A stretch of DNA of 58,825 nt from Rothia nasimurium (GTDB lineage: Bacteria; Actinomycetota; Actinomycetes; Actinomycetales; Micrococcaceae), in NCBI RefSeq assembly GCF_004569295.1, contig NZ_SPQC01000012.1:1-58825 (forward strand), in the 5' to 3' direction. The notes under the pieces were generated by a model. The model was not told the DNA's origin and ran no database searches. It saw only the letters and a list, made by a program, of their open reading frames with translations. How positions within the stretch are numbered: position 1 is the stretch's first letter; every line of letters starts with the position of its first letter. Below are positions 4,736-58,825 of this stretch, one piece after another. The position numbers were made by a program, and so were the translations under genes.

Positions 4736-5379
4736 TCGTTATCGGCGCTGGCTCGGTGGGCTCATCAAGCGCCCGCGAGCTGCTTTCGCACGGCCACACG
4801 GTCACCATTATCGACATCAAGCCCGAGGCCATTTCCCGCAGCGACATTCAGCATGCCCACTGGGTGATTGGGGACGCCTGCGAGCTGTCCGTCCTGCGCC
4901 AGGCCAAGCCCGAGAACGCGGACGTCATTGTTGCCGCCTCTGGTGACGATAAAACCAACCTGGTGGTATCGCTGCTAGCCCGCAGTGAATTTGGGGTACC
5001 CCGCACCGTGGCTCGCGTGAACAATCCCAAAAATGAGTGGCTCTTCGATGACTCCTGGGGCGTAGATGTTGCGGTTTCTACCCCGCGCCTCATGACCGCG
5101 CTGGTGGAAGAGGCCGTTGAGGTGGGCGATGTGGTGCGCCTGCTGACCCTCAAAACTGGCAGCGCCACCCTGGTCGAGTACACCGTGCCCACCGACCACC
5201 CGATTATTGGCCACACCGTCGATAACGTGCAGTGGCCCTACGAGACCACCCTCACCGCCATCCTGCGCGACGGGGTACCGATTACCCCCAGCGGCGACGA
5301 TGTGATTGAGGGTGGCGACGAGCTCTTCTTTATCACCACCCCCACCGGTGAGGACGACATCCGCGCCCTCTTCAGCTAG
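4726..5379 (+). CDS. TrkA-family potassium uptake regulator, second of pair (CeoC-like)
   Basis: This 217-residue protein has the same two-domain plan as its neighbour. The Rossmann loop GAGSVG lies at residues 7-12, with TIIDIKPE closing strand two, then an RCK_C domain near 130-215. The ATG lies inside the last codons of the upstream trkA, a 10-nt overlap typical of coupled pairs. Together the pair probably senses nucleotides or c-di-AMP and regulates the adjacent K+ permease. It ends before a long hairpin that separates it from the convergent OB-fold gene. Confidence 0.85.
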   Translation: MEVIVIGAGSVGSSSARELLSHGHTVTIIDIKPEAISRSDIQHAHWVIGDACELSVLRQAKPENADVIVAASGDDKTNLVVSLLARSEFGVPRTVARVNNPKNEWLFDDSWGVDVAVSTPRLMTALVEEAVEVGDVVRLLTLKTGSATLVEYTVPTDHPIIGHTVDNVQWPYETTLTAILRDGVPITPSGDDVIEGGDELFFITTPTGEDDIRALFS

Positions 5380-6867: not shown

Positions 6868-7314
6868 TTACTGTACGCCCGTTGAACCGAACCCGGCAGT
6901 TCCACGCTCAGTTTCGCTCAAACTCTCCACCACATTAAAAGTAGCCGACTCAAACCGCTGAATAACCAGCTGGGCAATGCGGTCACCGCGCTGAATCTCA
7001 AAAGCCTGCTCCCGGTCGGTATTGAGCAGGCAGACCATGAGCTCACCCCGATACCCGGAATCAACGGTGCCCGGTGCGTTCACAATCGTAATGCCGTGCT
7101 TAGCAGCCAGACCCGAACGGGGGTGCACCAGACCCACATAGCCATCAGGCAGGGCAATAGCCACGCCGGTCGGCACCAGGGCCCGCTCACCCGGTTGCAG
7201 GGTGAGGTCCACGCGCGAGCGCAAATCAGCGCCGGCGTCCCCGGGCTGGGCGTAGGCGGGGGGCTCGATTCCCTCATCGAGCATCTTGATATCAATCTTA
7301 AGCTGGTTCATCAC
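6868..7314 (-). CDS. dut: Deoxyuridine 5'-triphosphate nucleotidohydrolase (dUTPase)
   Basis: The enzyme hydrolyses dUTP to dUMP and pyrophosphate, keeping uracil out of DNA and feeding dTMP synthesis. All five motifs of the trimeric family are present in 148 residues: PGDAGADLRS (24-33), HPRSGLAAK (64-72), PGTVDSGYRG (81-90, catalytic Asp85), GDRIAQLVIQ (110-119) and RGTAGFGSTG (137-146), the last closing over the active site. The first ATG is used here; the next Met directly follows it. It lies head to tail with DUF3710 and divergent from DUF3093, the usual actinobacterial order. Confidence 0.97.
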   Translation of the reverse strand: MMNQLKIDIKMLDEGIEPPAYAQPGDAGADLRSRVDLTLQPGERALVPTGVAIALPDGYVGLVHPRSGLAAKHGITIVNAPGTVDSGYRGELMVCLLNTDREQAFEIQRGDRIAQLVIQRFESATFNVVESLSETERGTAGFGSTGVQ

Positions 7315-8325: not shown

Positions 8326-8749
8326 GGTTTTCTCCGTATTAAGTGTGCGAAGGGTAGATACCCCCTCTGCCTGGTCTGGGGTACCTGCACCTCGGTCTTG
8401 GTGTCGACCAACTCTGCGCTCGTCAGGGTCTACGACTGTGTTGAGGTGACGGGTAGAATTGTTCACTATTGCCCCCGATAATGCAAGTGGAAACTTCATG
8501 TTCTCTCTCAGCGAGTCACAAAGGCCTGACCAGGGCTGCCTCGGGGTAAGAAAAATATTTAAAGCTCTTGCTGAACTTGAGCGAAAACCCCTTGAAAAAC
8601 CGGGTTTTTTCAAAACTTCACCCCTGCCCCCAGCTACTTTAGCTTTCAAGCACAGCTTGAGCCGGTAGTCTTTCAAGTAAGTGTAAAGATTGAAGTGAGC
8701 ACCCCTCTCTGCTGAGGTGGTGCCCGGCCCCATCTAAGGAGACCGAGCA
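8326..8749. other. Divergent intergenic region between DUF4193 and sepH
   Basis: I see no convincing gene in these 424 nt. They must contain divergent promoters for DUF4193 and sepH. A hairpin of TTGAAAAACC with GGTTTTTTCAA (8592-8613) is terminator-like on either strand. The AAGGAGA at 8736-8742 is the sepH ribosome binding site. A 69-codon open frame at 8459-8668 has no family features. Confidence 0.5.
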
Positions 8750-11389: not shown

Positions 11390-12622
11390 CTAGCCGGTGG
11401 GTAGCATCAGCAGGGGCACCTGCGTTTCCTCAAGTGTGAGAGACCCGTGCTGGCCCACCATCTGCAGGGCGTGGGGCTTGTAACGCCGCATGTCGTAGAG
11501 GGCGATAGGTTCGCGAGCAGCCACGATAATATCGCCGATACGGCGGCGGGCCTCGTCAGTTACCGGCTGACCAAAATAACCAGCCTCAAAGAGTTCTTCT
11601 GAGTCAAAGACCCAGGCCTGCTCTCCCCAGGCCTCAGCCCACCGACCCAGGGCGTCCTGGCGGGCAGAAGCGCTGGTGTCCTTCAGGTAGAACTGCACCA
11701 TGCGGGGTTCACCCGCGGTCAGCTCAATGTTATCCAGCAGAGCTGTATCGCCCGAGTAGTCAATGCGATTTTCAGGGGCGATATCAACTATGCCGTGATC
11801 TGCTGTCATCAGCAATAGCACATGCGGGGGCAGCCTACGAGCCAGCGATTTCAGCGCGAGGTTGAGCTCTTCAAGCTGCTCAAGCCACTGGTCAGACCGG
11901 GTACCGAACTTGTGCCCGGCCTGGTCAATTTCCCCCCAGTAGAGGTAGACCAGGGACGGCTTACGGGAGTTCAACAGGCTAGCGGCCAAGGTGGTTCGGG
12001 CGGCATACCCGGCTGCGTGCACGAAGCGTCCGCCCCGCAGTCCAGCCTCGCTCAGGCCGGTGCCGGCATACTTGCTCAGCGACACGGTAGCCACATCCAG
12101 GTGGTTCTGGTAGCGCTCAAAGACCGTGGGGTGGGGCTGCCACTGGTGGGGGTCGACGGTCTTGTCCCAGCCCGAGAGCTGGTTCATCACGGCCCCGGTA
12201 GCCGGGTTTTTCACCTCGTACCCGGCCATGCCGTGGTAGCCCGGCGGGGTTGCTGTTCCCAGGCTACTGAGTGAAGCTACCGTGGTTGAGGGGACGGCCG
12301 AGTGAATCGGGCCGAGCTGGGTGGCTTTCTTTAAGAAGGGGGCATAGGAGCCGTAGGCATTCAGCAGGCTCTGCCCCAGCCCATCGACCATAACCAGGCA
12401 GACGCTGCGGTAGCGGGTAGGGTCAACCCCGGCGGCACGCAGGCGGTCTGCCAGGCCGAGCAGGTCGTGACGTCCTGCCCCGTGCAGGGGGTGCGGGTCG
12501 GGGGTGATAGACCCCTGGGCGACCAGGGTGCCGCAGGATTCGAAGAGGTCAGCTAGGTTGTTGCCGCCGTAGCCGGGTTCGGTGGGTAGGGCGTTACCGC
12601 AGTAATCGGTCAGGACGCTCAT
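11390..12622 (-). CDS. Nucleotide pyrophosphatase/phosphodiesterase-like protein (alkaline phosphatase superfamily)
   Basis: This 410-residue protein has the type I phosphodiesterase/NPP fold of PF01663. Metal and nucleophile positions are visible: LVMVDGLG (Asp80), HSAVPSTTVAS (Thr113/114, nucleophile region), YWGEIDQAGHKFG (Asp and His), MTADHGIVD (Asp-His) and GQHGS near the C-terminus. It probably hydrolyses a phosphodiester or nucleotide with two zinc ions; the substrate is unknown. There is no signal peptide, so it is probably cytoplasmic. Its ATG is 1 nt downstream of the DUF5998 stop, so the two form an operon. I recall this pair next to sepH in other Micrococcales. Confidence 0.85.
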   Translation of the reverse strand: MSVLTDYCGNALPTEPGYGGNNLADLFESCGTLVAQGSITPDPHPLHGAGRHDLLGLADRLRAAGVDPTRYRSVCLVMVDGLGQSLLNAYGSYAPFLKKATQLGPIHSAVPSTTVASLSSLGTATPPGYHGMAGYEVKNPATGAVMNQLSGWDKTVDPHQWQPHPTVFERYQNHLDVATVSLSKYAGTGLSEAGLRGGRFVHAAGYAARTTLAASLLNSRKPSLVYLYWGEIDQAGHKFGTRSDQWLEQLEELNLALKSLARRLPPHVLLLMTADHGIVDIAPENRIDYSGDTALLDNIELTAGEPRMVQFYLKDTSASARQDALGRWAEAWGEQAWVFDSEELFEAGYFGQPVTDEARRRIGDIIVAAREPIALYDMRRYKPHALQMVGQHGSLTLEETQVPLLMLPTG

Positions 12623-13319: not shown

Positions 13320-16148
13320 TTAGCTGCTCATGGTTCGGCGGGCAGAATCGGTGCGCTGCTGGGGGTTGCCCAGGCGCATCTTGGCGCCCACCACCGTGAG
13401 GGTCTCCTGTGAGAGCAGGACGGGGTTGAGTTCAAGGTAAGCAATCTCGGGGTGGTTGTCTTTCATCAGGGCTACCCGGGCGCAGAGATCTTCGAGCAGG
13501 TCAACCCGCACCTGAGGCAGGTCGCCGTCGGCAAAGAGCTTGGCTGCTGCCTTAGGCGAGTGTACCATCTTGTAGACATCCCGTTCGGTCAGCGGTGGGA
13601 TGCGGTGGGCCCAGTCTTCCAGCAGGCTGGTGGCGTCCCCGGCCATGCCGAAAGAGACCACGGGTCCGATCAGGGGGTCTTCGATGCCGGTGAGCACCGC
13701 TGTTTGACCGGCCGGGGCCTGTTTCTGCACGGTGAGGTCGAACCTACCGTAGGGTTCGAGCACGCGGTGCATTTGGGCTATTTCGCTAATGAGTTCGGCG
13801 TCGCTTTCAATGCCCAGGCGCACACCACCCAAATCTATGCGGTGGCGCAGGAAATCGTCAGTGGTTTTCAGGACAACCGGGTAGCCGCCTGCCCGGGCAG
13901 CGGCCTCAACGGCTTCTTCTGCGGTGTCAAAGCCGTATTCGGGCAGCAGGCTAATGCCGTAGTGGGCAAGGAGTTCTTCGGTGGCAGAAGCTGGTACATC
14001 GAGCAGGTTCTCACCGCTCACCTGGGTCAGGTGCTGGGCAATGTCAGCGGCCGCAGCCTTGGGGCTGACGTTCTCGGGAGTAGCCAGACCCCCGGTTTCT
14101 TTCTCCCGCCACTCCACATAGTCCATGACGCTTGCCAAAGCCAATATAGAAGCCCCCGGGGACTCAAAGCAGGGCAGCCCTTCTTGCAGGGTGGAGGTGC
14201 TCTCCCCCGCGGTCTCCCCCTCTGCCGGGGCGGGCGTCCGCTCATCCGGGTCTTCCCAGATTCCGCGAAGGGCTGCGTCAAAGCTGAGCGTGCCGGGGAA
14301 GGCAGCAACCACGGGTTTTCCGGTGCGCTTGCCTGCGCGGTAAAGGACGCGGGCAACGGCCTTGGAGTCGATAGAGTCGCCGGTGAGGAAGACGCCAATG
14401 GCCGCATCAATATCTGATGCTTCGAGGGCGCTGGTTGCCACGTCTTCAAGCACCTCTAGCCCGTTGATACCGTCATCTGTAAGCCTCAGCATGGACTCGG
14501 TCACCCGCACATCGATGTTCAGGGCCTCGGATTTGTCGGCGATAATCTGCCCCAGGGCTGAAGCGTTGGAGAGGATAGCCACGCGCCGCCCATTGGGAAG
14601 GGGCTGGGAGACCAGCACCTGGGCCACGTCGAGCACCTGGTCGAAGGTTTCGGCGCTGATGACCCCAGCCTGCTTGAACATGGCGTCCAGGGCTTCGGTG
14701 GGGGCAATGGAGGTTCGCCCCGAATGCCCGGGAGGGAGCTGCTGGCCGGTCACAGCGTTCTTGGCCACGAGCACAGGTTTGACGCGGGAGAGCCTGCGCG
14801 CGATACGGGAGAACTTTCGGGGGTTGCCGATAGATTCAAGGTAGAGGGCGCAGACGCGGGTTGCTTCATCGTCTTCCCAGTACTGCATGATGTCGTTACC
14901 CGACACATCGGCGCGGTTGCCCGCTGAGACCAGGGACGATACACCGATATTGCGTTTGACGGCGGTGTTAGAGAACATGGCGCCGATAGCTGAGGACTGG
15001 CTAAAGAGGCCCAGGGCACCGGGTTTGGGGTCCTGGGCGCTGATCGTGGCATCAAGGCGAACGTCCGGGTTATTGTTCAGCAGGCCGAAGGAGGCAGGGC
15101 CGATCACGCGCATACCGTGGCTACGGGCCGATTTCACCAGGGCTTTTTGACGGGCGCGGCCGCGGGCCCCGTCGTCCGCGTAGCCGGAGGTGTAGATGAG
15201 GACGCCGCGGACGCCTGCCTCGCCGCAGGCTTCTACGGCTGCGGCTACCTCGGCGATGGGGACGGCAATAATAGCTAAATCTACACGGGCCGGCACTTCA
15301 CCGATGCTGGGGTAAATGGGCACCTCACCGGCAGGTAGCTGATCCTCGTTAACGCCGTAGAGGGCGCCGGTGAATCCGCCTACCACCAGGGTTTTAATAA
15401 CCTTGTGGCCGTTGGCTTCCCAGCGGGGTGCTGTACCAATCACGGCAACGGTGTCGGGGGCAAGGAGCTCGGCGATAGATTTGGCTTCAGCGCGGTGCTC
15501 GCGGGCTTCCGTCACACCGCGGGAGCGGTCGGTGGGGTCGATGTTGAAGTAGACCATGACCAGGCCGTCTTCAAATTCGCGGGAAATCTCGTAGCCCGCG
15601 TCGGTGAAGACATTGAGCATTTTGCGGTTCTGGGGCAGAACTTCGGCGCTGAACTTGTCGATACCGCGCTCGTTAGCAGCTGCCGCGAGGTGTTCTAGCA
15701 GGATTGACCCGATGCCGCGCCCCTGGTGAGCGTCGGAAATCATGAAGGCCACTTCAGCCTCCGTGGGGTTGTGAGTGCGGTCGTAGCGGCCGATGCCAAT
15801 CATTTCATCGCCCAGCATGATGACGAAGGCAACCCGGTTATTGTGGTCCACCGTGGTGAACCGGGTCAGTTCTTTGTCGCTCAGGGTGGGTTTGTGGGTG
15901 AAGAAACGCAAATAGATGGTGCGCTCTGACTGGCCCGCGTACATTTTTTCGAGGGCTACCCGGTCGGTGGGGACGACGGGGCGCAGGTTGGCGGTGGCTC
16001 CGTCGCGCAGGACGACATCCGCCTCCCAGTGGGCCGGGTAGATAAAGGGGATTTCGTCGGTTGTGGGGTGGGCTGGGTCAGCCGGCGTGAAACGCGGGGC
16101 CTGGTCGTCCTGCTCGTAGCGGCCTGCGGGTGCTTCTGATTCGGTCAC
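13320..16148 (-). CDS. GNAT acyltransferase fused to NDP-forming acyl-CoA ligase domains
   Basis: A 942-residue multidomain protein. An N-terminal GNAT domain (about 40-205) has the acetyl-CoA loop HQGRGIGSILLEHL. A CoA-binding domain follows (about 230-330: AVIGTAPRWEANGHKVIKTL). Next is a succinyl-CoA-ligase-like region (about 370-660: LFSQSSAIGAMFS, LSNASALGQI). A C-terminal ATP-grasp lies at about 700-925 (GGYPVVLKTTDDFLRHR, YLELNPVLL). It resembles Pat/PatZ-type lysine acetyltransferases that silence acetyl-CoA synthetase, but here GNAT comes first, whereas it is C-terminal in E. coli PatZ. Whether the ligase half is active cannot be settled from sequence. The start is a GTG. Confidence 0.85.
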   Translation of the reverse strand: MTESEAPAGRYEQDDQAPRFTPADPAHPTTDEIPFIYPAHWEADVVLRDGATANLRPVVPTDRVALEKMYAGQSERTIYLRFFTHKPTLSDKELTRFTTVDHNNRVAFVIMLGDEMIGIGRYDRTHNPTEAEVAFMISDAHQGRGIGSILLEHLAAAANERGIDKFSAEVLPQNRKMLNVFTDAGYEISREFEDGLVMVYFNIDPTDRSRGVTEAREHRAEAKSIAELLAPDTVAVIGTAPRWEANGHKVIKTLVVGGFTGALYGVNEDQLPAGEVPIYPSIGEVPARVDLAIIAVPIAEVAAAVEACGEAGVRGVLIYTSGYADDGARGRARQKALVKSARSHGMRVIGPASFGLLNNNPDVRLDATISAQDPKPGALGLFSQSSAIGAMFSNTAVKRNIGVSSLVSAGNRADVSGNDIMQYWEDDEATRVCALYLESIGNPRKFSRIARRLSRVKPVLVAKNAVTGQQLPPGHSGRTSIAPTEALDAMFKQAGVISAETFDQVLDVAQVLVSQPLPNGRRVAILSNASALGQIIADKSEALNIDVRVTESMLRLTDDGINGLEVLEDVATSALEASDIDAAIGVFLTGDSIDSKAVARVLYRAGKRTGKPVVAAFPGTLSFDAALRGIWEDPDERTPAPAEGETAGESTSTLQEGLPCFESPGASILALASVMDYVEWREKETGGLATPENVSPKAAAADIAQHLTQVSGENLLDVPASATEELLAHYGISLLPEYGFDTAEEAVEAAARAGGYPVVLKTTDDFLRHRIDLGGVRLGIESDAELISEIAQMHRVLEPYGRFDLTVQKQAPAGQTAVLTGIEDPLIGPVVSFGMAGDATSLLEDWAHRIPPLTERDVYKMVHSPKAAAKLFADGDLPQVRVDLLEDLCARVALMKDNHPEIAYLELNPVLLSQETLTVVGAKMRLGNPQQRTDSARRTMSS

Positions 16149-22268: not shown

Positions 22269-22760
22269 CTAGTCTTGGGTGGTGATGACGCGCGCCCGTC
22301 CGGTAACGGTGATATCAACGCCGTCAGGTAGCACAACGGATAGTAAGGGCGGGTGGGCCCTGGCAGAAAGGACAATAACCGCAGTGTTGTTTCCCGACGC
22401 CCCGGTTGCGGAGTTTAAGGTCAGGTGGGAGAAGTCGGTGCCGGCGCCGCTTTCTTGCAGAAAGGTGTGAGCGGACGCCTGCACCCCGGCGCTACTGAGA
22501 GTCGCCTGGGCCTGGGTCTCCCCTACCGCTGCGATGCCCTCGATGCGTTGCGCGGCGGACGTTGCCGCTTGGTCAGCTAGAGCCTGAAGGCGCTGTCTTT
22601 CGAGATAGACGGAACTTACTCCAACGACGGTGGAGGCTACCAGAAGAAGTACCAGGCACAGTCCCAAGATGAAAGGAAGGACGCTGCCCCGCTCAGACTC
22701 GCTCACGGTTGCCTCAGGGCACGGTTCCTGCTGAAGCTGAGCCTGTCTGGTCTGTGTCAC
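22269..22760 (-). CDS. TadG-like pilus assembly / pseudopilin protein
   Basis: A 163-residue protein with a short N-terminus ending ERGSVLPFILGLCLVLLLVA. A Gly-Ser then a long hydrophobic helix preceded by Glu is the mark of Tad-type pseudopilins. The helix is followed by YLERQRLQALADQAATSAAQ, the classic start of the TadG/TadE periplasmic part. It overlaps the upstream TadE-like gene by 4 nt. It is probably anchored in the membrane and helps assemble a Flp/Tad pilus. Confidence 0.75.
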   Translation of the reverse strand: MTQTRQAQLQQEPCPEATVSESERGSVLPFILGLCLVLLLVASTVVGVSSVYLERQRLQALADQAATSAAQRIEGIAAVGETQAQATLSSAGVQASAHTFLQESGAGTDFSHLTLNSATGASGNNTAVIVLSARAHPPLLSVVLPDGVDITVTGRARVITTQD

Positions 22761-23215
22761 GAGTAGTCTCCTCCCCAGCTCACAGCCTGAGAGGTCATGG
22801 TGGCGAGAGTCGGTGCCCCTGGCCAGGGTACCAGGGGCAGCCCGACCTCGACGGTAACATCTACAGTTATTCGCTCGCCCTGGGCACAGACGTCCTCGCA
22901 GCTCAGCGTGGCAGTAATGGTTTCGACGTCTAAACCGAAGTCGCTAGCCGTCAAAGCGGCAACCGCTTGCACAGCAGTTGAGGTGCGCTGCTCCGGTGGC
23001 AAAAACTGAATCACCTGTAGCGCATGGGCGCTAGCGTTAGAAGCCGCAAAAGCAGCCGACTGCATCGAGAAGACTGATAACAGAAAATAGACCGTGGGCA
23101 CCATCAACAGGGCACCCAGTCCAATAAACTCAACAAGAGCGCTACCCTGCTCAGGGTCGAAAGTCTCTCGCATACCTACAGCTTTATCACCGCATTTATC
23201 TCTGAACCACAGCAT
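22757..23215 (-). CDS. TadE-like pilus assembly protein
   Basis: A 152-residue protein with EQGSALVEFIGLGALLMVPTVY, the TadE N-terminal motif (Gly, Glu and a long hydrophobic helix). A soluble part with one Cys pair (CEDVC) follows. The ATG at 23215 follows GGGAGGTGAG and overlaps the upstream gene by 20 nt. An internal Met at 23173 is closer to the motif but has a weaker ribosome binding site. It probably acts as a minor pseudopilin in the membrane. Confidence 0.8.
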   Translation of the reverse strand: MLWFRDKCGDKAVGMRETFDPEQGSALVEFIGLGALLMVPTVYFLLSVFSMQSAAFAASNASAHALQVIQFLPPEQRTSTAVQAVAALTASDFGLDVETITATLSCEDVCAQGERITVDVTVEVGLPLVPWPGAPTLATMTSQAVSWGGDYS

Positions 23216-23582
23216 GACCGCTCACCTCCCACTGGGCAGCTACCCCAAAGGGCCCAAGAAGGGGAACCGGGGCAACCACGGTGACCTGCACGGTGTCCGC
23301 CCCCTGCCACTGGGTAACAGAACTGCTAATCGTTGCCGAGTAGTGGGAGGGCAGCACCGAATACAGCAACTCGCGGGTGCGTTCTTCCCCATCAGCCGGT
23401 GTTTTATCGAGCATGGCCCCATAGCGGGCCCCCTGAGACGCAGCGTCCTGCAGCACGTTACGGGTGAATAGTGCGAAAGCAACCTGCAAAACACCTAGAA
23501 AAAGTAAGACAACTAAGGCAGATACCATCACGAACTCCGCCGTTGCATTACCTCTCTCCTTCTCAGGGGGCACAGCTCTCAT
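23196..23582 (-). CDS. TadE-like pilus assembly protein
   Basis: A 128-residue protein with ERGNATAEFVMVSALVVLLF, a good TadE motif (AEF after small residues and then a hydrophobic helix). ALFTRNVLQDAASQGARYGA follows, typical of TadE just after the helix. It is a second minor pseudopilin in tandem with the gene at 22757. The start lies 9 nt after the stop of the tiny upstream ORF. No tadA, tadB or tadC is seen upstream; the prophage is there instead. Confidence 0.8.
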   Translation of the reverse strand: MRAVPPEKERGNATAEFVMVSALVVLLFLGVLQVAFALFTRNVLQDAASQGARYGAMLDKTPADGEERTRELLYSVLPSHYSATISSSVTQWQGADTVQVTVVAPVPLLGPFGVAAQWEVSGHAVVQR

Positions 23583-23591
23583 GCGGCTCTC

Positions 23592-23732
23592 CTAGCGGTT
23601 AATCATTGCCATTGCGTTATTGAACATGTTGACGAGGGCGTCCTGGGCAACCACCAAGATAGCGGCCACGAGTATCGCAGACATCATGGTAGTGACTAAT
23701 AATTCCCGGAAATAAAGCCCAAAACACCCCAC
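23592..23732 (-). CDS. Tiny Flp-pilin-like ORF
   Basis: This gene is shorter than usual gene-finder cut-offs. From the GTG at 23732 the product has 46 residues: MGCFGLYFRELLVTTMMSAI and a hydrophobic run ending VVAQDALVNMFNNAMAMINR. The G-LYFRE segment fits the class III prepilin rule (cleavage after Gly, Glu at +5, then a hydrophobic helix). A shorter product from the ATG at 23687 (31 residues) would lose that motif. The stop is 9 nt before the TadE gene, so it fits as the first gene of the remaining tad operon. Neither start has a strong ribosome binding site, so the call is tentative. Confidence 0.4.
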   Translation of the reverse strand: MGCFGLYFRELLVTTMMSAILVAAILVVAQDALVNMFNNAMAMINR

Positions 23733-23784
23733 AACCCCGCCAATTCACCACTAACTCACCACTTTGAAAACCAGCCGAAGGCAC

Positions 23785-23819
23785 AAAAAAGACCCTCCCT
23801 GCTAAAAGCAGAGAGGGTC
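23785..23819 (-). terminator. Strong minus-strand intrinsic terminator at the phage/host junction
   Basis: GACCCTCCCTGCT (23791-23803) pairs with 23807-23819 with a single mismatch and a 3-nt loop. On the minus strand it is followed by TTTTTT (23785-23790). It would end transcripts that run leftward from the hairpin array or from the phage late operon, just before the tad genes. Confidence 0.85.
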
Positions 23820-23820
23820 G

Positions 23821-24040
23821 ATACCCCCGCAAACGCGGGGAAAAATTAGCCTTGTATAACTACTAAGGCTCACCCCCAGAAACCTGGGGAACAATTCAGC
23901 CCTACACATCTACTAGGGCTCACCCCCGCTGACGCGAGGAAGAAAGCTGACAATACAAATGTATTGAAATACCCCCGCAACTGCGGGGAAAATAAGCGAC
24001 TAACCAAATACTGGGAAGTACCCTCACTTCTGTGAGGAAC
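23821..24040 (-). repeat. Array of five CRISPR-like hairpins spaced 49-50 nt, with interleaved hairpins
   Basis: Five units share a 6-bp stem with a 4-nt loop. Stems lie at 23825-23840, 23874-23889, 23924-23939, 23973-23988 and 24022-24037. On the minus strand they read like TTCCCCGCGTTTGCGGGGGT, which resembles type I-E CRISPR repeats. Stem sequences differ but pairing is kept: CCCCGC/GCGGGG, CCCCAG/CTGGGG, CCTCAC/GTGAGG; the third unit has one mismatch. Between units lie other hairpins: AGCCTT/AAGGCT (23848-23870), AGCCCT/AGGGCT (23898-23920), both with 11-nt loops, and CAATAC/GTATTG (23951-23966). A normal I-E array has about 61-nt spacing and identical repeats, so this is not a standard CRISPR. 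A structured RNA ending at the 23785 terminator is possible. Confidence 0.75.
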
Positions 24041-24069
24041 GCTTACAGTGACAACTATAGCAGAATGCC

Positions 24070-24091
24070 CCCGGCCCATTGCAGGGCCGGG
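24070..24091. terminator. GC-rich hairpin after the lysis genes
   Basis: CCCGGCCC (24070-24077) pairs with GGGCCGGG (24084-24091), loop ATTGCA. No T-run follows on the minus strand, so it may only stabilise the late mRNA 3' region and allow read-through into the hairpin array. Confidence 0.55.
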
Positions 24092-24102
24092 AGATGTCTC
24101 TC

Positions 24103-24405
24103 TTATTCAGGTGGGGTTTTCAGTAGGGCCAGTAGACCCTGGGAGCCGCCGAGAAAGACCCAGACGGCGGTGGCGATGGTCAGCCAGACCGGGTGCGAAA
24201 AGCCACCAGCTGAATAGCCGACCTGGATAGCTCCGAGGATTACCGAGCCGAGGGCGTAGAGGGCATAGACCCAGCGGCGCGCCCTGGCGGTAATCAGCTC
24301 GGCTACCGCGTCATTAGCCTCAACTACTGGGGCCGGGGCTTGCGGGGTCCGTTCGTCCACGCTCACCACCGGCTTTACATCGCGGGAAAAAGTCGGGCCC
24401 GCCAT
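24103..24405 (-). CDS. Small two-pass membrane protein, probable holin
   Basis: A 100-residue protein. After a 40-residue N-terminus it has two membrane segments: RRWVYALYALGSVILGAIQV (about 43-63) and HPVWLTIATAVWVFLGGSQG (about 71-90), with a short C-terminus. Its ATG overlaps the endolysin stop (TAATG). Two-helix proteins in this place are usually holins that release the endolysin. The identity is by position and topology, not by a family motif. Two other membrane genes upstream are alternative holin candidates. Confidence 0.6.
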   Translation of the reverse strand: MAGPTFSRDVKPVVSVDERTPQAPAPVVEANDAVAELITARARRWVYALYALGSVILGAIQVGYSAGGFSHPVWLTIATAVWVFLGGSQGLLALLKTPPE

Positions 24406-25370
24406 TAGCGTTCACCTTCTCCCCAAATCTCCAGCGCGGTTCCCGGGGTGAGAGACTTGCCCGGGTTGCGGTCCTTGACCGCCTGCACACTGTAGCCGTA
24501 GTAGGTGGCAATCTTCTCCCAAGAGTCGCCAGCCTCCACAGTCCAGACCAGTGGGCCGGGGATAAAGACGCGCTGGCCCACGGCCAGGCGGTTGGCGTCC
24601 TTGATGCTGTTGTAGTCGGTCAGCTTCTTGATATCGGCTGCAGATGCGTTGCCGAAGTAGTAGCGGGCAATCTTAGCCAGAGTGTCCCCAGCCCGCACAG
24701 TCCAGTGCGGGGCATTGAGATTGTTACCCACGGCGGTACGCTGGTCTGGCGCAGGCGCAGCGTTCTGCGCTGCGGGAGCTACATGCGTGGTCCCACCATA
24801 GAGCAAATCATTGATAGCCAGTCGCAGGGCATCCATGTCGATATAGGTCGGGTCAATCTTGCCCTGGTCGGAGTATTCCTTATGGCCAATCTGGATGAAG
24901 TCCTTACCCTTCCCGTAGCCACGTTCTAGGGCGGCGCCCAGGTGGGGCATGACGCGACGCTGAGCCTCAGTCCAATCATCACGCACGCCGGATGATTCCA
25001 TCTCGATGCCGATGAAATACGAATTTCCCACATTGCGGTAGGCCCCGGAGGCACTGCCGGTACCAGCGTGATTACACAGGCCAGCAGCTACGACGTACAC
25101 GGTTCCGTCACGGCCCAGGGCCAGCTGAGAAAGCGGGCCAGGCAGGAAAGAATGACCGTTGATAAGGATATTCAGGGTCGGCGCGTTCGAGCGAGCATAG
25201 GCCGCCTCGGCAGTGGCGGTATGGTGCCAGAGGACGCCTTCGACGCCCTCCATGCCCTGCCCAGCGTAGCCACGGGTCTTCCACCCGGCAGTCTCGACCA
25301 CAGTGAGTTTGGAGCCGTCCGGCGCGGTATAGGCACGGAGCTTATCGGCTAGATCGATGATAAAAGGCAT
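24405..25370 (-). CDS. Endolysin: N-acetylmuramoyl-L-alanine amidase with two LysM domains
   Basis: The enzyme cuts the bond between muramic acid and the stem peptide. The amidase_2/PGRP domain spans about 20-185. Likely zinc and catalytic residues are in VLWHHT (His49/50), GIEMES (Glu123), IGHKEYSDQGKIDP (His163, Asp173). A Pro/Ala linker (about 195-220) leads to two LysM modules, HWTVRAGDTLAKIARYYFG (from 222) and VWTVEAGDSWEKIATYYGY (from 275), which bind cell-wall glycan. There is no signal peptide, so release needs a holin. The ATG follows GAAAGGAAAGG. Confidence 0.92.
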   Translation of the reverse strand: MPFIIDLADKLRAYTAPDGSKLTVVETAGWKTRGYAGQGMEGVEGVLWHHTATAEAAYARSNAPTLNILINGHSFLPGPLSQLALGRDGTVYVVAAGLCNHAGTGSASGAYRNVGNSYFIGIEMESSGVRDDWTEAQRRVMPHLGAALERGYGKGKDFIQIGHKEYSDQGKIDPTYIDMDALRLAINDLLYGGTTHVAPAAQNAAPAPDQRTAVGNNLNAPHWTVRAGDTLAKIARYYFGNASAADIKKLTDYNSIKDANRLAVGQRVFIPGPLVWTVEAGDSWEKIATYYGYSVQAVKDRNPGKSLTPGTALEIWGEGER

Positions 25371-27832: not shown

Positions 27833-29173
27833 TTATTTTCCTATCTCTGTAAAATGCCAACGGGTCATGGTGACCACTTCTATTTCGCCTGAATCGCGGC
27901 GGGTCTTGAGGCGGTCAAGGAAGCCCTCGATGCCGGCGCGTGTCATACGCTGGGCAGCGCCGCCGCCCTCGATGTAGCAGGCGTGCAAGCCCAGGATGAC
28001 CCCGCCCCCGTTAGCGACGGCTTTATCAATGAGTTTTTCGCCGATACCGGCGGGCTTCACCCCAGCATCCTGCGGAAAATCTAGCCATTGACGGCCTGCA
28101 TTCATGCGCGGCGCCCCGTCCAGGGGGTGCACGAAGTCGTTCAAGACCGGGTTGTTCATGGTGCCCGTGGCCCAGGCGTGCCCGTAATTGACCCACCGGT
28201 CATAGGCGGTGCCTACTAGGGCGAGCTCGCCCTTAGTGCCAATCAGGGGGGCGGTTTTGTACTGGACGCCCTCGGGGAAGTCGCACCCGGGCGGGATGAA
28301 GCCCAGCACGTCTTGCCCGGTCTCAGCTCGCAGGCGGTCGCGGGAGCCAATAATTTCAGCTTTCATCTGCGCCACACTGGTCACGTCGGCATGTGTGGCC
28401 CCGTGATTGCAGATTTCCACCCCATCAGCAGCGGCCATAGCTTTCACATCGGCCCAGCTCTTACCCACGCTAAACCCCGCGTAGGAGTAGCCTGCGTCAA
28501 AAGTGTTTCCGTTCAGTGCCCAACTCCAGGGCAGAGCGCGGGCCTTCATCATGGGCGCGAAAATATCCAAGGTGGCCGCCGGGTAGTCATCTGCCACGAT
28601 GGCTACCACGGCCTTAGCGGTGGTACGCCGGGGCGCTGCCACAGTGCGGCGGGCACGGTCGCGCAAAAGGTCACGCTGGGCTACATCAGGCAGCGCATCC
28701 ACTTGGCTCTCGACATACTCCGAGCTGACGCCGCCACCTACCGGGCGGCCCTTGTAGTTGGTGCCCACCTCATAGGTGCCAGAAGAAGGGGCCTCGATAC
28801 TCATAAGCAGGCGGGAATCCCCATCAGAGGGCACGCCTAGCGCTGCCAAAGACTCAGCGCCAGAAAGCAAAAGGCGGCCACGAAAATTCGTGCCCACCTC
28901 ATAGGAGCCGCCGGTTTTGGCCTCAATGGGCACCAGCGAATTTTCTTTCACCGCCTCGATAGACTCCCCGACCTCACCGGTCAGGGCGTCCATCTGGGTC
29001 TGCATCTGCTCGCTAGCTTGCTGGATTTTCTCGGAAGTCGAAGCCTCAGCCGTGGCGGCCACGGTCGAGAGTGCAGCCTCAATCGTCACCGCCTGCTTTT
29101 GGTCTTGGGTACGGCCCAAAGCCAGCATAGAAGGGTCATCATAGTAGATGCCGTAAGTGGGGGTCGTACCCAT
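27833..29173 (-). CDS. Tail protein with NodB-like polysaccharide deacetylase domain
   Basis: This 446-residue protein has a tail-specific N-terminus (about 1-160) with a helical region (STSEKIQQASEQMQTQMDAL) and two SYEVGTNFRGR/TYEVGTNYKGR repeats. The C-terminal half (about 185-446) looks like a carbohydrate esterase 4 deacetylase: AIVADDYPA (motif 1, Asp-Asp), CNHGATHAD (motif 2, HxxxH), FIPPGCDFPEG (motif 3 region) and ILGLHACYIEGGG near the end (motif 5-like). Such a domain could deacetylate host peptidoglycan or surface glycan during adsorption. Activity is inferred from motifs only. Confidence 0.75.
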   Translation of the reverse strand: MGTTPTYGIYYDDPSMLALGRTQDQKQAVTIEAALSTVAATAEASTSEKIQQASEQMQTQMDALTGEVGESIEAVKENSLVPIEAKTGGSYEVGTNFRGRLLLSGAESLAALGVPSDGDSRLLMSIEAPSSGTYEVGTNYKGRPVGGGVSSEYVESQVDALPDVAQRDLLRDRARRTVAAPRRTTAKAVVAIVADDYPAATLDIFAPMMKARALPWSWALNGNTFDAGYSYAGFSVGKSWADVKAMAAADGVEICNHGATHADVTSVAQMKAEIIGSRDRLRAETGQDVLGFIPPGCDFPEGVQYKTAPLIGTKGELALVGTAYDRWVNYGHAWATGTMNNPVLNDFVHPLDGAPRMNAGRQWLDFPQDAGVKPAGIGEKLIDKAVANGGGVILGLHACYIEGGGAAQRMTRAGIEGFLDRLKTRRDSGEIEVVTMTRWHFTEIGK

Positions 29174-29174
29174 C

Positions 29175-31433
29175 TTATCCTCCGTGGTAAATATCAGGGG
29201 CCGCCTCAGCGGTAGCCCAGGTTGTCTTATCGGCAGTGCGGGTGGCCTCCAGCTGCGCCCAGGTCATGCCCTGGGCTCTCACAGCAGCCTCCACCTGCGC
29301 CCAGTTCCGGGAGCGGAATTCTTCGGCCACGGTGCGGATATCCAGGGTGGTGGTGCCGCTATCTGGGTCATGGGTTACGCCCTCGACCGAGCCGCGGATA
29401 ATAGCGCCGAAGAGATTGCCTGACCCGTCCCGCTGTACGCCGAATAGCCTAATCATGGCGTGCATGGTAATGGTCGGGTCATAGCGGACGGTCACCTGGC
29501 GCATGCACGGGGGTGGGGCCGTGACCTTCCCCGCCAGATACTGCGCCATCTCCGTAGCGACCTTCGCGTCGGTCACCCAGCGGGTAGCGTCAATCGCCAG
29601 CACACCCGCAAAGGGGGAAGAATCAGCGGCCACCGCAACGGTGGCCTCGGTGCGCTCCACCTTCCCACGCCCGCGCATAATCGGGGTCTGCGCCCCGTGT
29701 AGCATGCGCGAAATCTGGGGGTGCTCGAACACTTCCCGGTTGGCGTCCTCACTAAACTTTTCGGTGATAACCCACTTCCAAGGCACCACCTCACGCACGG
29801 TCATGGCATACCCGCCCACCCAGCGGGTCGGGCTATCTTGGGTGGGCCCGGGCTTAGCGCAGCCGAACCAGGACCCATTCATGGAGTTGAACCCGCTCGG
29901 GTTGGCGTTGAGGTTCGAGAAGGTGGCGTCGGGGTCTACCCAGTCAGTGGCCTCGTCATATTCGATAAATCCCTCCGTATTATCCCCGGCCTTAGCCGTC
30001 CCACCCTTGCTCCACAGCTCGACGTTGTACCCGGTGGTATAGGTCGAAGCTACTTCCGAGTAGGTGACCTCCACTGCCGAGCGGCGAAGGGCAAGCTCAC
30101 TCACGATTTGGTAATCGGCGATATGCTCGGCGGCGGTCAGCTCATGGGCCACAGGCTTACCCAGCAGATACTCAGCAGATTCAAAATGCGCGATACCCTC
30201 ACCGTCCACCCACCAGGCGGCGCAGGTGGCCGCGGCGATTTCATCGAGCACGGAGCCCGCCGACTGGTCGCGGATAGAGGGTGAAGCGGCCAGCCCCGTA
30301 GCCCACCTACCGGGCTGAATCTGCGCAGTCTGCCGATGTGCCAGGGCAGGGTGCGCTACCCCGGTATTGGGGTCAGAGACCTGCACGCCAGCTACCCTAG
30401 CCAGAGGGTCAGCTGTGACACTGAGGTACTGGAAAGGGGCCTTGAAGCTCGTGGCAAAAGAAGCCCTGTAATCCCCCACAGCGACCTCGGTCATCTCACC
30501 GACCGTACGCAGGGAGATGACACGCTCACTAGCCCAAGTACTGGCGTCGATGGTATGTACCACCTCCGTGGTGCCCCCAACGTATCCGCGCACTACCTGA
30601 AGCTGCCGGGCGGCGGTGATATGGAAGCCAACCAACCAGTTATCGGAAGCTACCGCATACACCTGGGCTTCCCCTGCGTGGGATAGGCCAATCATGGCAG
30701 AAAGGCGGATACGACCAGCAGGGATAGGCCGACCGGTGTTGTTGTGGACGGCGACTTTGCCTGCGTCCATCCAGAGCATGCCTTCTTCATGGCGCAGGCG
30801 TGGGGAGAAGGCGCCACCGGCAGGGTTTTTGTGGGCTTGGGAGCGAATCAAGTAGCCGTTCTTCTTCCACTCGTTGGAGAAGAAAGCCCCCTGCATGGTG
30901 GCCTCAGCCCACAAACCAGCAGGCGGCGGCGGAGTCAGGTGATACCCAGCCGCCCTGAAAGCCTCAGCCACAGCCCACAGAGGCGTGGGGTAGCAGTGAC
31001 GGTAGCCGTCCGCGTCCGAAGACCAGGCAATATCAAAAGTATTTTTCGGCATGACGCGCATAACCGGGGGCAGGCGGACCTTACGAGAGAAAGAATCTAG
31101 GGGGATAGTCATTTCAAGGCTGGCACTATCGATACTGTGACGAGCGGTGCTGACCGTGGGCCGGAAGGTGGCCACCAGCTTCTGCCCCTGCCAGACCTTA
31201 ATCACCACAGTATCCCCTGCCAGGGGGTAGGTCTGGGTGAACGGCGAGGGGCCACCCTCAACCGTTTCTTTCGGGGGGACGATATCGCATTTAGCGTGCC
31301 AGGCCCCATTCCCGGCAGTGATACCGATACTCTCCGGCAGGGAAGAGCTAGCGGCCTGCCCCCAGGTGAGATTCTTGATACGGTACACGGTCCCCTTATA
31401 TTCCAGGGTTTCACGGATAGACACGGCCACCAT
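29175..31433 (-). CDS. Minor tail protein, probable tail-tip hub
   Basis: A 752-residue protein downstream of the distal-tail gene, in the place of the tail-associated hub of actinobacterial siphoviruses. It has beta-rich blocks (DTVVIKVWQGQKLVATFRPT) and a middle part (about 240-340) that resembles a carbohydrate-binding module. Near the C-terminus short repeats occur: NWAQVEAAV, TWAQLEATR and TWATAEAAP (about 712-746). No peptidase motif is visible. Starts with MVAVSIRETLEYKGT, 1 nt after the stop of the 31435 gene. Confidence 0.65.
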   Translation of the reverse strand: MVAVSIRETLEYKGTVYRIKNLTWGQAASSSLPESIGITAGNGAWHAKCDIVPPKETVEGGPSPFTQTYPLAGDTVVIKVWQGQKLVATFRPTVSTARHSIDSASLEMTIPLDSFSRKVRLPPVMRVMPKNTFDIAWSSDADGYRHCYPTPLWAVAEAFRAAGYHLTPPPPAGLWAEATMQGAFFSNEWKKNGYLIRSQAHKNPAGGAFSPRLRHEEGMLWMDAGKVAVHNNTGRPIPAGRIRLSAMIGLSHAGEAQVYAVASDNWLVGFHITAARQLQVVRGYVGGTTEVVHTIDASTWASERVISLRTVGEMTEVAVGDYRASFATSFKAPFQYLSVTADPLARVAGVQVSDPNTGVAHPALAHRQTAQIQPGRWATGLAASPSIRDQSAGSVLDEIAAATCAAWWVDGEGIAHFESAEYLLGKPVAHELTAAEHIADYQIVSELALRRSAVEVTYSEVASTYTTGYNVELWSKGGTAKAGDNTEGFIEYDEATDWVDPDATFSNLNANPSGFNSMNGSWFGCAKPGPTQDSPTRWVGGYAMTVREVVPWKWVITEKFSEDANREVFEHPQISRMLHGAQTPIMRGRGKVERTEATVAVAADSSPFAGVLAIDATRWVTDAKVATEMAQYLAGKVTAPPPCMRQVTVRYDPTITMHAMIRLFGVQRDGSGNLFGAIIRGSVEGVTHDPDSGTTTLDIRTVAEEFRSRNWAQVEAAVRAQGMTWAQLEATRTADKTTWATAEAAPDIYHGG

Positions 31434-31434
31434 G

Positions 31435-32220
31435 TTAGTTCACCTCCGTGAGCGTCAAAGAGTAAGAAACCGGGGAATGCGGATACGCCAAGCTGCCGTG
31501 CGAGTATTGGATGTCGTCGATGGTGACCCAGGCGCAATGCCCCACGGGGGCCGCCCCCAGCTTGGTCGCGTCATGGCCCGTGCGTAGGGCAGGGGCCGCG
31601 AAAACAGTGAGCGCACCAGCGGCCACAATTTTAGCTTCCACAGCTCCGGCCGGGGCGGTAGACTCAACCTGTACCCACCCAGGCGCGGTAGTGGCAGTAG
31701 CTCTAGCAGTGTAGTGGCGCATGAGGACCCCGGCAGCGTCGCGGTACTCGATGGACAGGATACCCCCGCCCTGGTAGGCAGAACCTACCAGGGTCATACC
31801 TTCGCGCACGGGGGCAGAGGTAGAGGCGATATACCCGCCAGCCCGTGATAGCCCGTAGGCCTGCACGGGTAGGCCGTCCACGGCTCTACTGCCCAGGGGT
31901 AGGACATTGCCGGTAACTGTCTCAGAGGGGAGCATGTTCACATGCCTGCCCATGAGCGACAGCCAATACAGGCGGCGCCCACCAGAGCGGGCCAGGGCTG
32001 TGACCCGGTTAGCCCACTCCCACGGAGCCTGAACATCAACCTGCCAAGAACGCGGAGTCACACCACGGAAGAAAGCAGACCGCAGCCCAAGCGCAGACAC
32101 AAACGGCGCGATAAGAGGCCCACCGCCAGAGACACTCACCGAGCCGCGATCAGCAACCGGCACCCAATGGTGGTCCTCAGTCACCAGCCAGCCCACACAA
32201 TCATTCAACCCAATGCTCAT
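31435..32220 (-). CDS. Minor tail protein (distal-tail-like)
   Basis: A 261-residue protein. The N-terminal half includes LRSAFFRGVTPRSWQVDVQA and WEWANRVTALARSGGRRLYW. This resembles tail proteins that follow the tape measure and organise the tip. The C-terminal half (about 125-215) looks like a carbohydrate-binding beta-sandwich (GGYIASTSAPVREGMTLVGS). The stop is just before the hub gene. Its ATG overlaps the end of the 32217 gene by 4 nt. No enzymatic motif is visible. Confidence 0.6.
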   Translation of the reverse strand: MSIGLNDCVGWLVTEDHHWVPVADRGSVSVSGGGPLIAPFVSALGLRSAFFRGVTPRSWQVDVQAPWEWANRVTALARSGGRRLYWLSLMGRHVNMLPSETVTGNVLPLGSRAVDGLPVQAYGLSRAGGYIASTSAPVREGMTLVGSAYQGGGILSIEYRDAAGVLMRHYTARATATTAPGWVQVESTAPAGAVEAKIVAAGALTVFAAPALRTGHDATKLGAAPVGHCAWVTIDDIQYSHGSLAYPHSPVSYSLTLTEVN

Positions 32221-58311: not shown

Positions 58312-58825
58312 CTAAAAGGGTGGGTTTTCATCGCCTGTGCCCTGTCCCCAGCCTTGGTTGCCCTGGGCTGGTTGTGCCCATGGGTCGGCTTGGGGTGCGC
58401 CACCCTGGGGGGCTTGTCCTTGGGGTTGTGTGTTCCCTTGGGGTGTCCCGAAGCCGCCTGCGTAGGCGTTGTGGGCGGGTGGGGTGGTGGTGTTGGTTTG
58501 TCCGTTGGTGGGTATGATGGCGATTTTTGCGCCTGTGATGGTGGGGTTGGTGTAGGTTTTGCCGTTGTGTTCGCGGGTTTCTAGTTGTGGGTGCCCGGTG
58601 ATGAGTACGCGGGTGCCTTTGGTCAGGTGGGGGGCGGTGTTGTCGGCGGCGGTTCCCCAGAGGGTGATTTTCCACCAGGTGGTTGGGCCGTTGTCTTCCC
58701 ATTTTTGGGTTTGTTGGTTGTATTTTTGGGGTGTTTCGGGGACGGTGATGTTGAGGGTGGGGGTTCCGTTTGGGGTGTAGCGGGTTTCGGGTGGGGTGGC
58801 GATGAAGCCTTCTAGGGTGATGGTT
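58312..58825 (-). CDS. ssb: Single-stranded DNA-binding protein, 5' end outside the window
   Basis: Read through the right edge, this frame is open for 170 codons and lacks only its start. It reads TLEGFIATPPETRYTPNGTP, then TWWKITLWGTAADNTAPHLT and KGTRVLITGHPQL, the SSB OB-fold with GxRVxVxG. A Gln/Gly/Pro-rich linker leads to the tip TGDENPPF, close to the usual acidic DDDIPF that binds partner proteins. Third codon positions are almost all C or A. Phage SSBs protect replicating DNA. Confidence 0.88.
   Translation of the reverse strand, partial: TITLEGFIATPPETRYTPNGTPTLNITVPETPQKYNQQTQKWEDNGPTTWWKITLWGTAADNTAPHLTKGTRVLITGHPQLETREHNGKTYTNPTITGAKIAIIPTNGQTNTTTPPAHNAYAGGFGTPQGNTQPQGQAPQGGAPQADPWAQPAQGNQGWGQGTGDENPPF

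Follow-up and report, generated by a model that had tools for sequence, protein, structure and literature searches.

The DNA analyzed, which we call the window, is a stretch of 58,825 nucleotides of Rothia nasimurium in which host sequence passes into a prophage. The genome of the window's own host is denoted G000 and the contig of the window C31; other G and L numbers denote other genomes and loci. The stretch from 22700 to 24100 is matched by 20 of 35 Rothia genomes. The own genome aside, 17 of these lose homology at 23690 or 23691. The end at 23690 was found again at all six loci that were re-read. In G214 (75% identity) the homology reaches 23765, still short of the array of hairpins described below, and G324 matches only a short internal piece of the stretch. 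Because host homology stops before the array, the array must be phage DNA, lying ~0.1 kb from attL. A first-pass annotation of the window had placed it at the prophage/host junction, and this is correct, the array being on the phage side. CATGGTA, the putative attL core, is found a second time on contig C57 (L207), at the opposite half-site, where the other half of the interrupted gene also lies. That gene appears by eye to encode the Flp pilin of a Tad-type locus (window 23617-23691). The features of the junction and the lysis genes are as follows.

23685..23691, no strand assigned: attL core CATGGTA
24068..24093, minus strand: GC-rich hairpin ~10 nt past the holin-like gene
24103..24405, minus strand: small holin-like gene, without Pfam or PHROG match and named by position
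24405..25370, minus strand: endolysin, amidase_2 and LysM

No relative was found with the holin-like gene as probe. The hairpin that follows it is like the terminator after the holin-like gene in two relatives, but without the U-tract. A second endolysin of the family (83% identical) is present in the own genome on a 4.2-kb contig, G000:C101 (L060), with its own holin-like gene. This second lysis cassette is without an array.

The array consists of five stem-loops on the minus strand, each having a 6-bp stem and a 4-nt loop, and begins 63 nt past the stop of the holin-like gene. The stems of U1 to U5 lie at 24022-24037, 23973-23988, 23924-23939, 23874-23889 and 23825-23840. All five of the hairpins that had been reported at intervals of 49-50 nt were thus located, with spacings of 49, 49, 50 and 49 nt, and the poly-U terminator that had been described is a strong one on the minus strand (23819-23791). 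The elements are, from 5' to 3' of the putative RNA:

24054..24062, minus strand: candidate extended -10 element TGCTATAGT shortly before U1, picked out by eye
24014..24039, minus strand: U1 stem-loop (CCTCAC/GTGAGG) and 8-nt handle GTACTTCC
23991..24013, minus strand: guide g1 (CAGTATTTGG...)
23965..23990, minus strand: U2 stem-loop and handle GTATTTCA, lineage-2 type; 23/29 to the G313 repeat
23942..23964, minus strand: guide g2 (ATACATTTGTATTGTC...)
23916..23941, minus strand: U3 stem-loop and handle GTGAGCCC, host-lineage type; 23/29 to the G000 repeat
23892..23915, minus strand: guide g3 (TAGTAGATGTG...)
23866..23891, minus strand: U4 stem-loop and handle GTGAGCCT
23843..23865, minus strand: guide g4 (TAGTAGTTATACAA...; also given as TAGTAgTTATAcAA)
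23817..23842, minus strand: U5 terminal repeat-like stem-loop, the 3' repeat of the last crRNA-like unit
23791..23819, minus strand: strong intrinsic terminator GACCCTCTCTGC/GCAGGGAGGGTC and T6

The candidate -10 element has no -35 box, and a promoter scan did not report this site.

The stems are conserved as structures. When three related units are added to the five, 97.9% of 48 cells are paired, a value reached by none of 500 shuffles, and in slid registers only 50-65% are paired. Three of the six stem pairs are altered on both sides (as many in 14/500 shuffles), and the covariation score was reached in 0/500; the number of extra pair types is unremarkable (151/500). The paired stem changes that had been noted are thereby upheld. 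A decayed CRISPR, which had been offered as one explanation, is not supported, since compensatory changes have kept the stems. The 311-nt minus strand folds with z = -9.4, and none of 100 shuffles folds as well.

Could the array be something more familiar? At gathering thresholds Rfam reported only one tmRNA and one tRNA in the window, and an Rfam family or a tRNA-like element was rejected. The end of a regular CRISPR array was also rejected. The units are not near-identical, three of them being 71-92% like U5 over 24 nt and U1 falling under the 67% limit, and their period is 49-50 nt compared with ~61 nt for a type I-E array and 61 nt for the host's true array. A search for two such hairpins at 38-58 nt spacing gave matches in 2 of 395 family genomes: this array (as four overlapping pairs) and one place in a true CRISPR array of G313. 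As the pattern occurs at just these two places, the array is not a chance arrangement. Two findings had been named in advance as counting against a phage RNA, the same array in related hosts that lack the phage and an array that is just the end of a regular one. Neither occurred: the array DNA matches 3 of 295 family genomes, the two besides the own being true CRISPR arrays of 61-nt period, and the array proved not to be where a regular one ends.

When the 58.8-kb window was probed with 11 I-E repeats of Rothia, U2 and U3 scored highest (23/29), in agreement with the earlier view that the minus-strand units look like type I-E repeats, and U4 and U5 came next (21/29). An unrelated site at 7204 ties with U4 and U5, the reversed-repeat control gave up to 20/29, and two related prophage regions also have chance sites at 20-21 of 29. 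U1 is weak, with ≤19/29 to any Rothia repeat (best G313). The units thus mimic the host's CRISPR subtype, though below the 90% identity required by the published Racr finder. Most I-E repeats of Rothia belong to one of two lineages, whose handles are ATGAGCCC/G and GTATTTCC, and G224 (GTGTTCCC) is a third form. The U1 handle GTACTTCC is one base off GTATTTCC, the handle of the lineage-2 repeats. U2 has GTATTTCA with a lineage-2 guide, and U3 and U4 have GTGAGCC with lineage-1 guides, so that handle type tracks the guide. Each spacer lies between repeat-like hairpins of the cognate subtype, which is the layout of a crRNA-like unit.

The hairpins AGCCTT/AAGGCT and AGCCCT/AGGGCT that had been seen in the spaces are present, but the covariation claimed for them is weak, because AGCC belongs to the crRNA 5' handle and the handles of ordinary crRNAs also pair often. 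We considered that such hairpins might hide the 5' handle. The final five bases of the handle are paired at ≥0.98 in the five units with an AGCC handle, and eight units taken together show stronger handle pairing than 237 natural crRNAs (Mann-Whitney p = 0.003). Among ordinary crRNAs with the same handle from three control arrays, 38-50% reach a pairing of 0.7, against 4% in a fourth control array whose handle is different. When the middle segment was shuffled, the observed pairing was reached in 32-66 of 300 trials per unit in the five units tried. Since ordinary crRNAs and shuffles so often pair the handle as well, this idea was dropped as a main claim.

A search of the same genome for cas genes and I-E repeats had been proposed, and it revealed a complete I-E operon (cas3, cse1, cse2, cas7, cas5, cas6e, cas1 and cas2) on contig C43. 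All eight genes score above the cut-offs of the respective NCBIfam models, subtype-specific or core. The one CRISPR array, of 69 repeats and 68 spacers, is directed in part against the prophage: 3 of the 68 spacers match it perfectly, 5 at ≤1 mismatch and 6 at ≤3. None matches the 23.7-kb host flank in the window at up to 7 mismatches, and ten shuffled spacer sets gave no match to the prophage. The protospacers are:

28882..28914, minus strand: s23, perfect, PAM AAC, self-targeting
30841..30873, minus strand: s36, perfect, PAM AAC
29730..29762, plus strand: s60, perfect, PAM AAC
29192..29224, plus strand: s56, 1 mismatch, PAM AAT
58436..58468, minus strand: s30, 1 mismatch, PAM AAC
31429..31461, plus strand: s26, 3 mismatches, PAM CCA

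The PAM is AAC at four of these six, and at 8 of 11 matches (≤3 mismatches) over all prophage sequences examined. Self-targeting is normally lethal unless CRISPR is inhibited.

We searched 20 Rothia cas loci for matches to the segments that follow the 8-nt handles. In the cas promoter of the host itself (G000:C43), g4 matches the site TAGTAATTATAAAA, preceded by the PAM AAC, at 12 of 14 positions, with mismatches at 6 and 12, and this site adjoins a TTGACA box. The first 15 nt of g2 match the G242 cas promoter (GAC followed by ATACAATTGTAATGT) at 13 positions, again with mismatches at 6 and 12; the PAM here is GAC, not AAC. g3 matches the G132 cas promoter (AAC followed by TAGTATATGTG) at 10 of 11 positions, with a mismatch at 6. 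A related prophage in G273, described below, carries a guide with 16 of 17 positions matched in the cas promoter of its own host, a site that three sister genomes share. Position 6 is mismatched in all four guides, and position 12 also in g2, g3 and g4. Cascade flips out guide positions such as 6 and 12 and does not read them. For g1 a comparison with the 20 Rothia cas loci, also shifted by ±1 base and without PAM, gave nothing above chance (4264/5000 shuffles equal). The matched sites precede the first gene of the cas operon, cas3 in G000 and G132 and cse1 in G273. In G242 the first gene has no NCBIfam match and is followed by a Cse2-like gene and cas7.

The significance of these matches was assessed at nine Rothia cas loci, within promoter windows of 300 nt, ignoring positions 6, 12 and 18 and with a PAM of NAC or AAG. 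The run is 12 nt for g4 in its own host, 13 nt for g2 in G242 and 16 nt for the G273 phage guide in its own host, each reached by 0/20000 shuffles, and 10 nt for g3 in G132 (16/20000). The 68 true CRISPR spacers gave runs of ≤8 in the same windows. These counts are somewhat favorable, since the windows were centered on sites first found with these guides or with the CreR scan described below. Over whole cas loci (573 kb, both strands, with PAM) the corresponding counts are 0/5000 for the G273 guide, 7/5000 for g2, a modest 20/5000 for g4 and a weak 178/5000 for g3. The case for g3 thus rests on the location of its site and on its identity with a host element. The seed matches of the window array are short, at 10-13 nt. 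A seed match beside a PAM in a cognate cas promoter was accordingly found for g4 in the own host and for g2 and g3 in other Rothia, and not for g1.

The host element in question resembles CreR, a host-encoded crRNA-like RNA that regulates cas in type I-B, I-E and V-A loci, according to reviews (PMC12737573, PMC13131331, PMC12948488). Upstream of cas3 in G000 there is a degenerate repeat, a guide TAGTAGTTATAA, a second degenerate repeat and a terminator. Over its first 12 nt this guide fits the promoter site of g4 except at position 6. The first 11 nt of g4 are identical to its start, those of g3 are identical to the start of the G132 guide, and the CreR-like unit of G242 has the same seed as g2. 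The lengths also agree: from the start of the guide to the next stem there are 25 nt in g2 and in G242, 26 nt in g3 and in G132, and 25 nt in g4 and in G000, compared with 37 nt in a normal crRNA of this host. In G273 the lengths differ (36 nt in the phage guide, 39 nt in the host element).

By script, CreR-like units were found at 8 of 20 Rothia cas loci, the eight rows being picked by eye as preceding a cas operon from a scan that also listed chance rows (runs of 9-10, often CRISPR spacers or repeat-to-repeat matches). Position 6 is mismatched in all eight, which the script did not require. Further units were found in G242 (by the g2 search and a relaxed scan that returned mostly chance rows) and in G273 (by eye). 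All ten are mismatched at position 6, and the G273 host guide has promoter mismatches at 6, 9 and 12. The gene beside the CreR-like site is cse1 or cas3 in G059, G033, G101, G337 and G224, and G002 looks like G101. The units placed before cas operons include:

L011 (G000:C43), 14955-15065: CreR-like unit
L209, ~4990-5080: CreR-like unit
L151, ~14220-14300: CreR-like unit
L219, ~12470-12560, minus strand: CreR-like unit

It seems from these sequences that Rothia hosts already repress their own cas genes via CreR-like elements, and because the host units are aimed at these promoter sites the phage guides would be aimed there too. In E. coli K-12 a repeat-like hairpin TTCCCTACTTAAGTAGGGATAAACCG lies between cas3 and casA, upstream of casA (L223 ~8485-8510), and is perhaps CreR-like.

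We therefore consider it likely, judging from the sequences, that the array encodes a phage mimic of the host's CreR autorepressor, equipped with several guides, that would turn Cascade on the cas promoters, so that the phage probably makes the host CRISPR machinery switch itself off. A single RNA would contain five mimics of the type I-E repeat, separated by four short guides that measure 25-26 nt as far as the next stem. Host Cas6e would cut at the hairpins to release up to four crRNA-like RNAs, the predicted pieces of ~49 nt beginning at GUACUUCC, GUAUUUCA, GUGAGCCC and GUGAGCCU, and these would load into the host's own Cascade. The guides would pair with the cas promoters by the seed only, and Cascade would then bind and block transcription; since only the seed region is matched, repression is expected rather than cleavage by Cas3. 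At least three guides appear to copy CreR-like seeds, g4 for the present host, g3 for a G132-type and g2 for a G242-type host. Since the guides fit promoters of different Rothia, the array has the look of a kit for several hosts. The phage would thus over-drive the natural autorepression of cas, and competition with real crRNAs for Cas6e and Cas7 would add the effect of a Racr-like sponge. The prophage may thereby survive in a cell with six spacers against it. Each of these steps (transcription, Cas6e processing, Cascade loading, repression and the sparing of the prophage) is inferred from sequence. An undetected protein anti-CRISPR, or a defect in cas expression, could also lie behind the survival of the lysogen.

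The array shares with CreR the arrangement of two degenerate repeats around a short spacer and a seed-limited match to a cas promoter beside a PAM, and with the Rothia CreR-like elements the same seeds and guide lengths. It differs from CreR in being phage-encoded at the end of a lysis operon, and in having four tandem guides, three of which fit the cas promoters of three lineages. A CreR is a host element that lies within or next to the cas locus, which this array is not; with the array in the prophage on C31 and the cas operon on C43, we call it a CreR mimic and not a CreR. Liu et al. (2023) is reportedly the primary CreR paper. In the autorepression of Cas9 another natural RNA, tracr-L, directs a CRISPR effector to the effector's own promoter; this system is type II and host-encoded. 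CreA of CreTA is also similar, being a crRNA-like RNA that uses partial complementarity to make Cascade a transcriptional repressor, but there it silences a host toxin (PMC9458426).

The alternative that survives best is that the array is a tandem set of Racrs acting as a passive decoy, in which the mimics bind Cas6e and seed useless Cas7 filaments and the segments between are linkers. Racrs (RacrIF1, RacrIE1/2; Camara-Wilpert 2023, PMC10651486) are phage mimics of the host repeat, expected to occupy Cas6 and Cas7 as this array would, and their action against type I-E is proven. Their published finder drops full repeat matches clustered within 100 bp, so that tandem ones may have been missed. 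The prophage contig of G301 has one unit without a guide that runs into a terminator, the classic Racr layout, and a plain Racr fits that locus better. In the window, however, the units are not solitary, with five in 0.22 kb, and linkers would not be expected to have cas-promoter seeds with PAMs, the right handle type and exactly the guide length of the CreR-like elements. We regard a passive decoy as unlikely. The first-pass annotation had suggested a structured phage RNA that occupies Cas6e or Cascade. Its elements stand, as there is a phage RNA sequence that mimics I-E repeats and a matching Cas6e and Cascade, but mere occupancy overlooked the guide seeds; since the inter-hairpin segments carry seeds for cas promoters, the RNA looks like more than a passive occupant. 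Unlike a Racr, the array has guides and is expected also to repress cas transcription. We class it as a CreR mimic and a guided relative of Racr, two kinds of RNA that were already known, and as belonging to neither as defined.

Virus-borne mini-CRISPR arrays have repeat-spacer units that borrow the host Cascade (PMC6858448), and such arrays are known in competition between viruses (PMC6858448, PMC11656645). If this were one, its crRNAs would cleave rival phages or plasmids. The guides here are shorter, with 25-26 nt to the next stem as opposed to 37, the repeats differ among themselves and from those of the host, and the targets are cas promoters and not viruses. Full-length anti-virus spacers were not found within the available sequences; against the available Rothia prophage sequences the best non-self match of any guide has ≥5 mismatches in 21-23 nt. 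This explanation is most improbable. Slimmer still is the chance that the array is captured or decaying host DNA, a functionless CreR copy or array end acquired by imprecise excision. It would fit the starts of g3 and g4, which are exactly those of host CreR-like guides, and the degenerate look of U1 and g1, but not the compensatory changes that keep the stems, nor guides for three host lineages with two handle types in one array; moreover the G273 phage guide matches the promoter better (16/17) than its host's own CreR-like guide. Least probable of all is an ordinary multi-hairpin 3' end of the lysis operon that is CRISPR-like by convergence of GC-rich hairpins, which agrees with the position between the holin-like gene and a terminator and with lone six-pair hairpins elsewhere in Rothia (6 of 46 non-array matches, 16 genomes), but leaves the handles, seeds, PAMs, guide lengths and period unaccounted for, as well as a two-hairpin pattern confined in 395 genomes to this place and one true CRISPR array.

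The CreR mimic that we favor would have consequences for the host's defense. CreR autorepression is thought to protect hosts, in that an anti-CRISPR that ties up Cascade derepresses cas (reviewed in PMC12737573). If our reading is right, CreR-like guides supplied by the phage would close this derepression loophole, with Cascade keeping cas off, and RNA-guided transcriptional silencing would join the known anti-CRISPR strategies. It would also account for the divergent repeats and short spacers of phage arrays set aside by the Racr finder, and the guides would point to the host lineages that a phage meets. In a limited search of the literature we found no paper on a phage-encoded CreR mimic with several guides.

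Related prophages were sought with the endolysin in 395 family genomes, the own included; 26 matched, and the DNA past the lysis gene was read in seven loci. Two other prophages have close endolysins (88-89%). That of G273 (R. nasimurium 64QC2CO), whose genome has Cas6e, carries the element, with two units at a spacing of 60, a leader and a terminator, and its unit 2 copies the odd 16-nt stem-loop CCCCGCGTAGACGGGG of the CRISPR repeat of G273 itself. G273 also targets itself: 1 of 36 spacers is perfectly matched at a site preceded by CAG, ~14 kb from its endolysin gene, in a stretch presumed to belong to the same prophage. G160 (15QC2CO) has no array after the lysis gene, and Cas6e was not found in its genome. 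The latter does hold eleven I-E-type repeats (G160:C2:147902-148532), ten of them with the stem-loop of the window's host, an orphan array. The G301 genome, with its single unit, has Cas6e and an array. This counts against the CreR mimic, as does the L060 lysis cassette without an array; the element being present in G273 and missing from G160 speaks for it.

In a collection of viral contigs two I-E-like hairpins at 38-58 nt occur in 21 stretches of 19 contigs, and the spacing is 49-50 nt in seven of these (L187, L190, L197, L201, L204, L205 and L206). By eye, L187, L197, L204 and L206 have two to five units and then a terminator-like hairpin. No such hairpin follows the five units of L190 (2449-2670, plus strand). 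The units of L201, at least seven in number, are fairly regular and may form a true CRISPR with short spacers, and L205 is doubtful. Three viral-contig patterns gave 0, 0 and 1 matches, the single match having no repeat-like hairpin around it, and a lineage-2-like pattern found four lone hairpins, three of them sharing flanks. We think it somewhat more probable than otherwise that phages carry a general class of multi-guide 'anti-cas' arrays, made of tandem crRNA mimics with short spacers and a 49-50 nt period, hijacking CreR autorepression with one guide per cas-promoter allele, and that it extends to the phages of other bacteria (contigs L187, L190, L197, L204 and L206, perhaps L201).

The nearest named relative of L190 is Pectobacterium phage ZF40, which has no such hairpins in the 13.1 kb examined. 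The guides of L190 gave no match to the E. coli K-12 cas locus, which may not be that of its host; as far as it goes, this too counts against the CreR mimic. The L190 array adjoins a spanin gene in an enterobacterial phage, and its stem-loops look E. coli-like and Klebsiella-like. Among named phages and plasmids the window array has only weak single-unit matches (Enterobacter plasmid, E = 0.9). Aeromonas phage phiA8-29 (L179 801-825) has a lone intergenic hairpin nearly identical to the U2 stem-loop (E = 1), which is perhaps a terminator.
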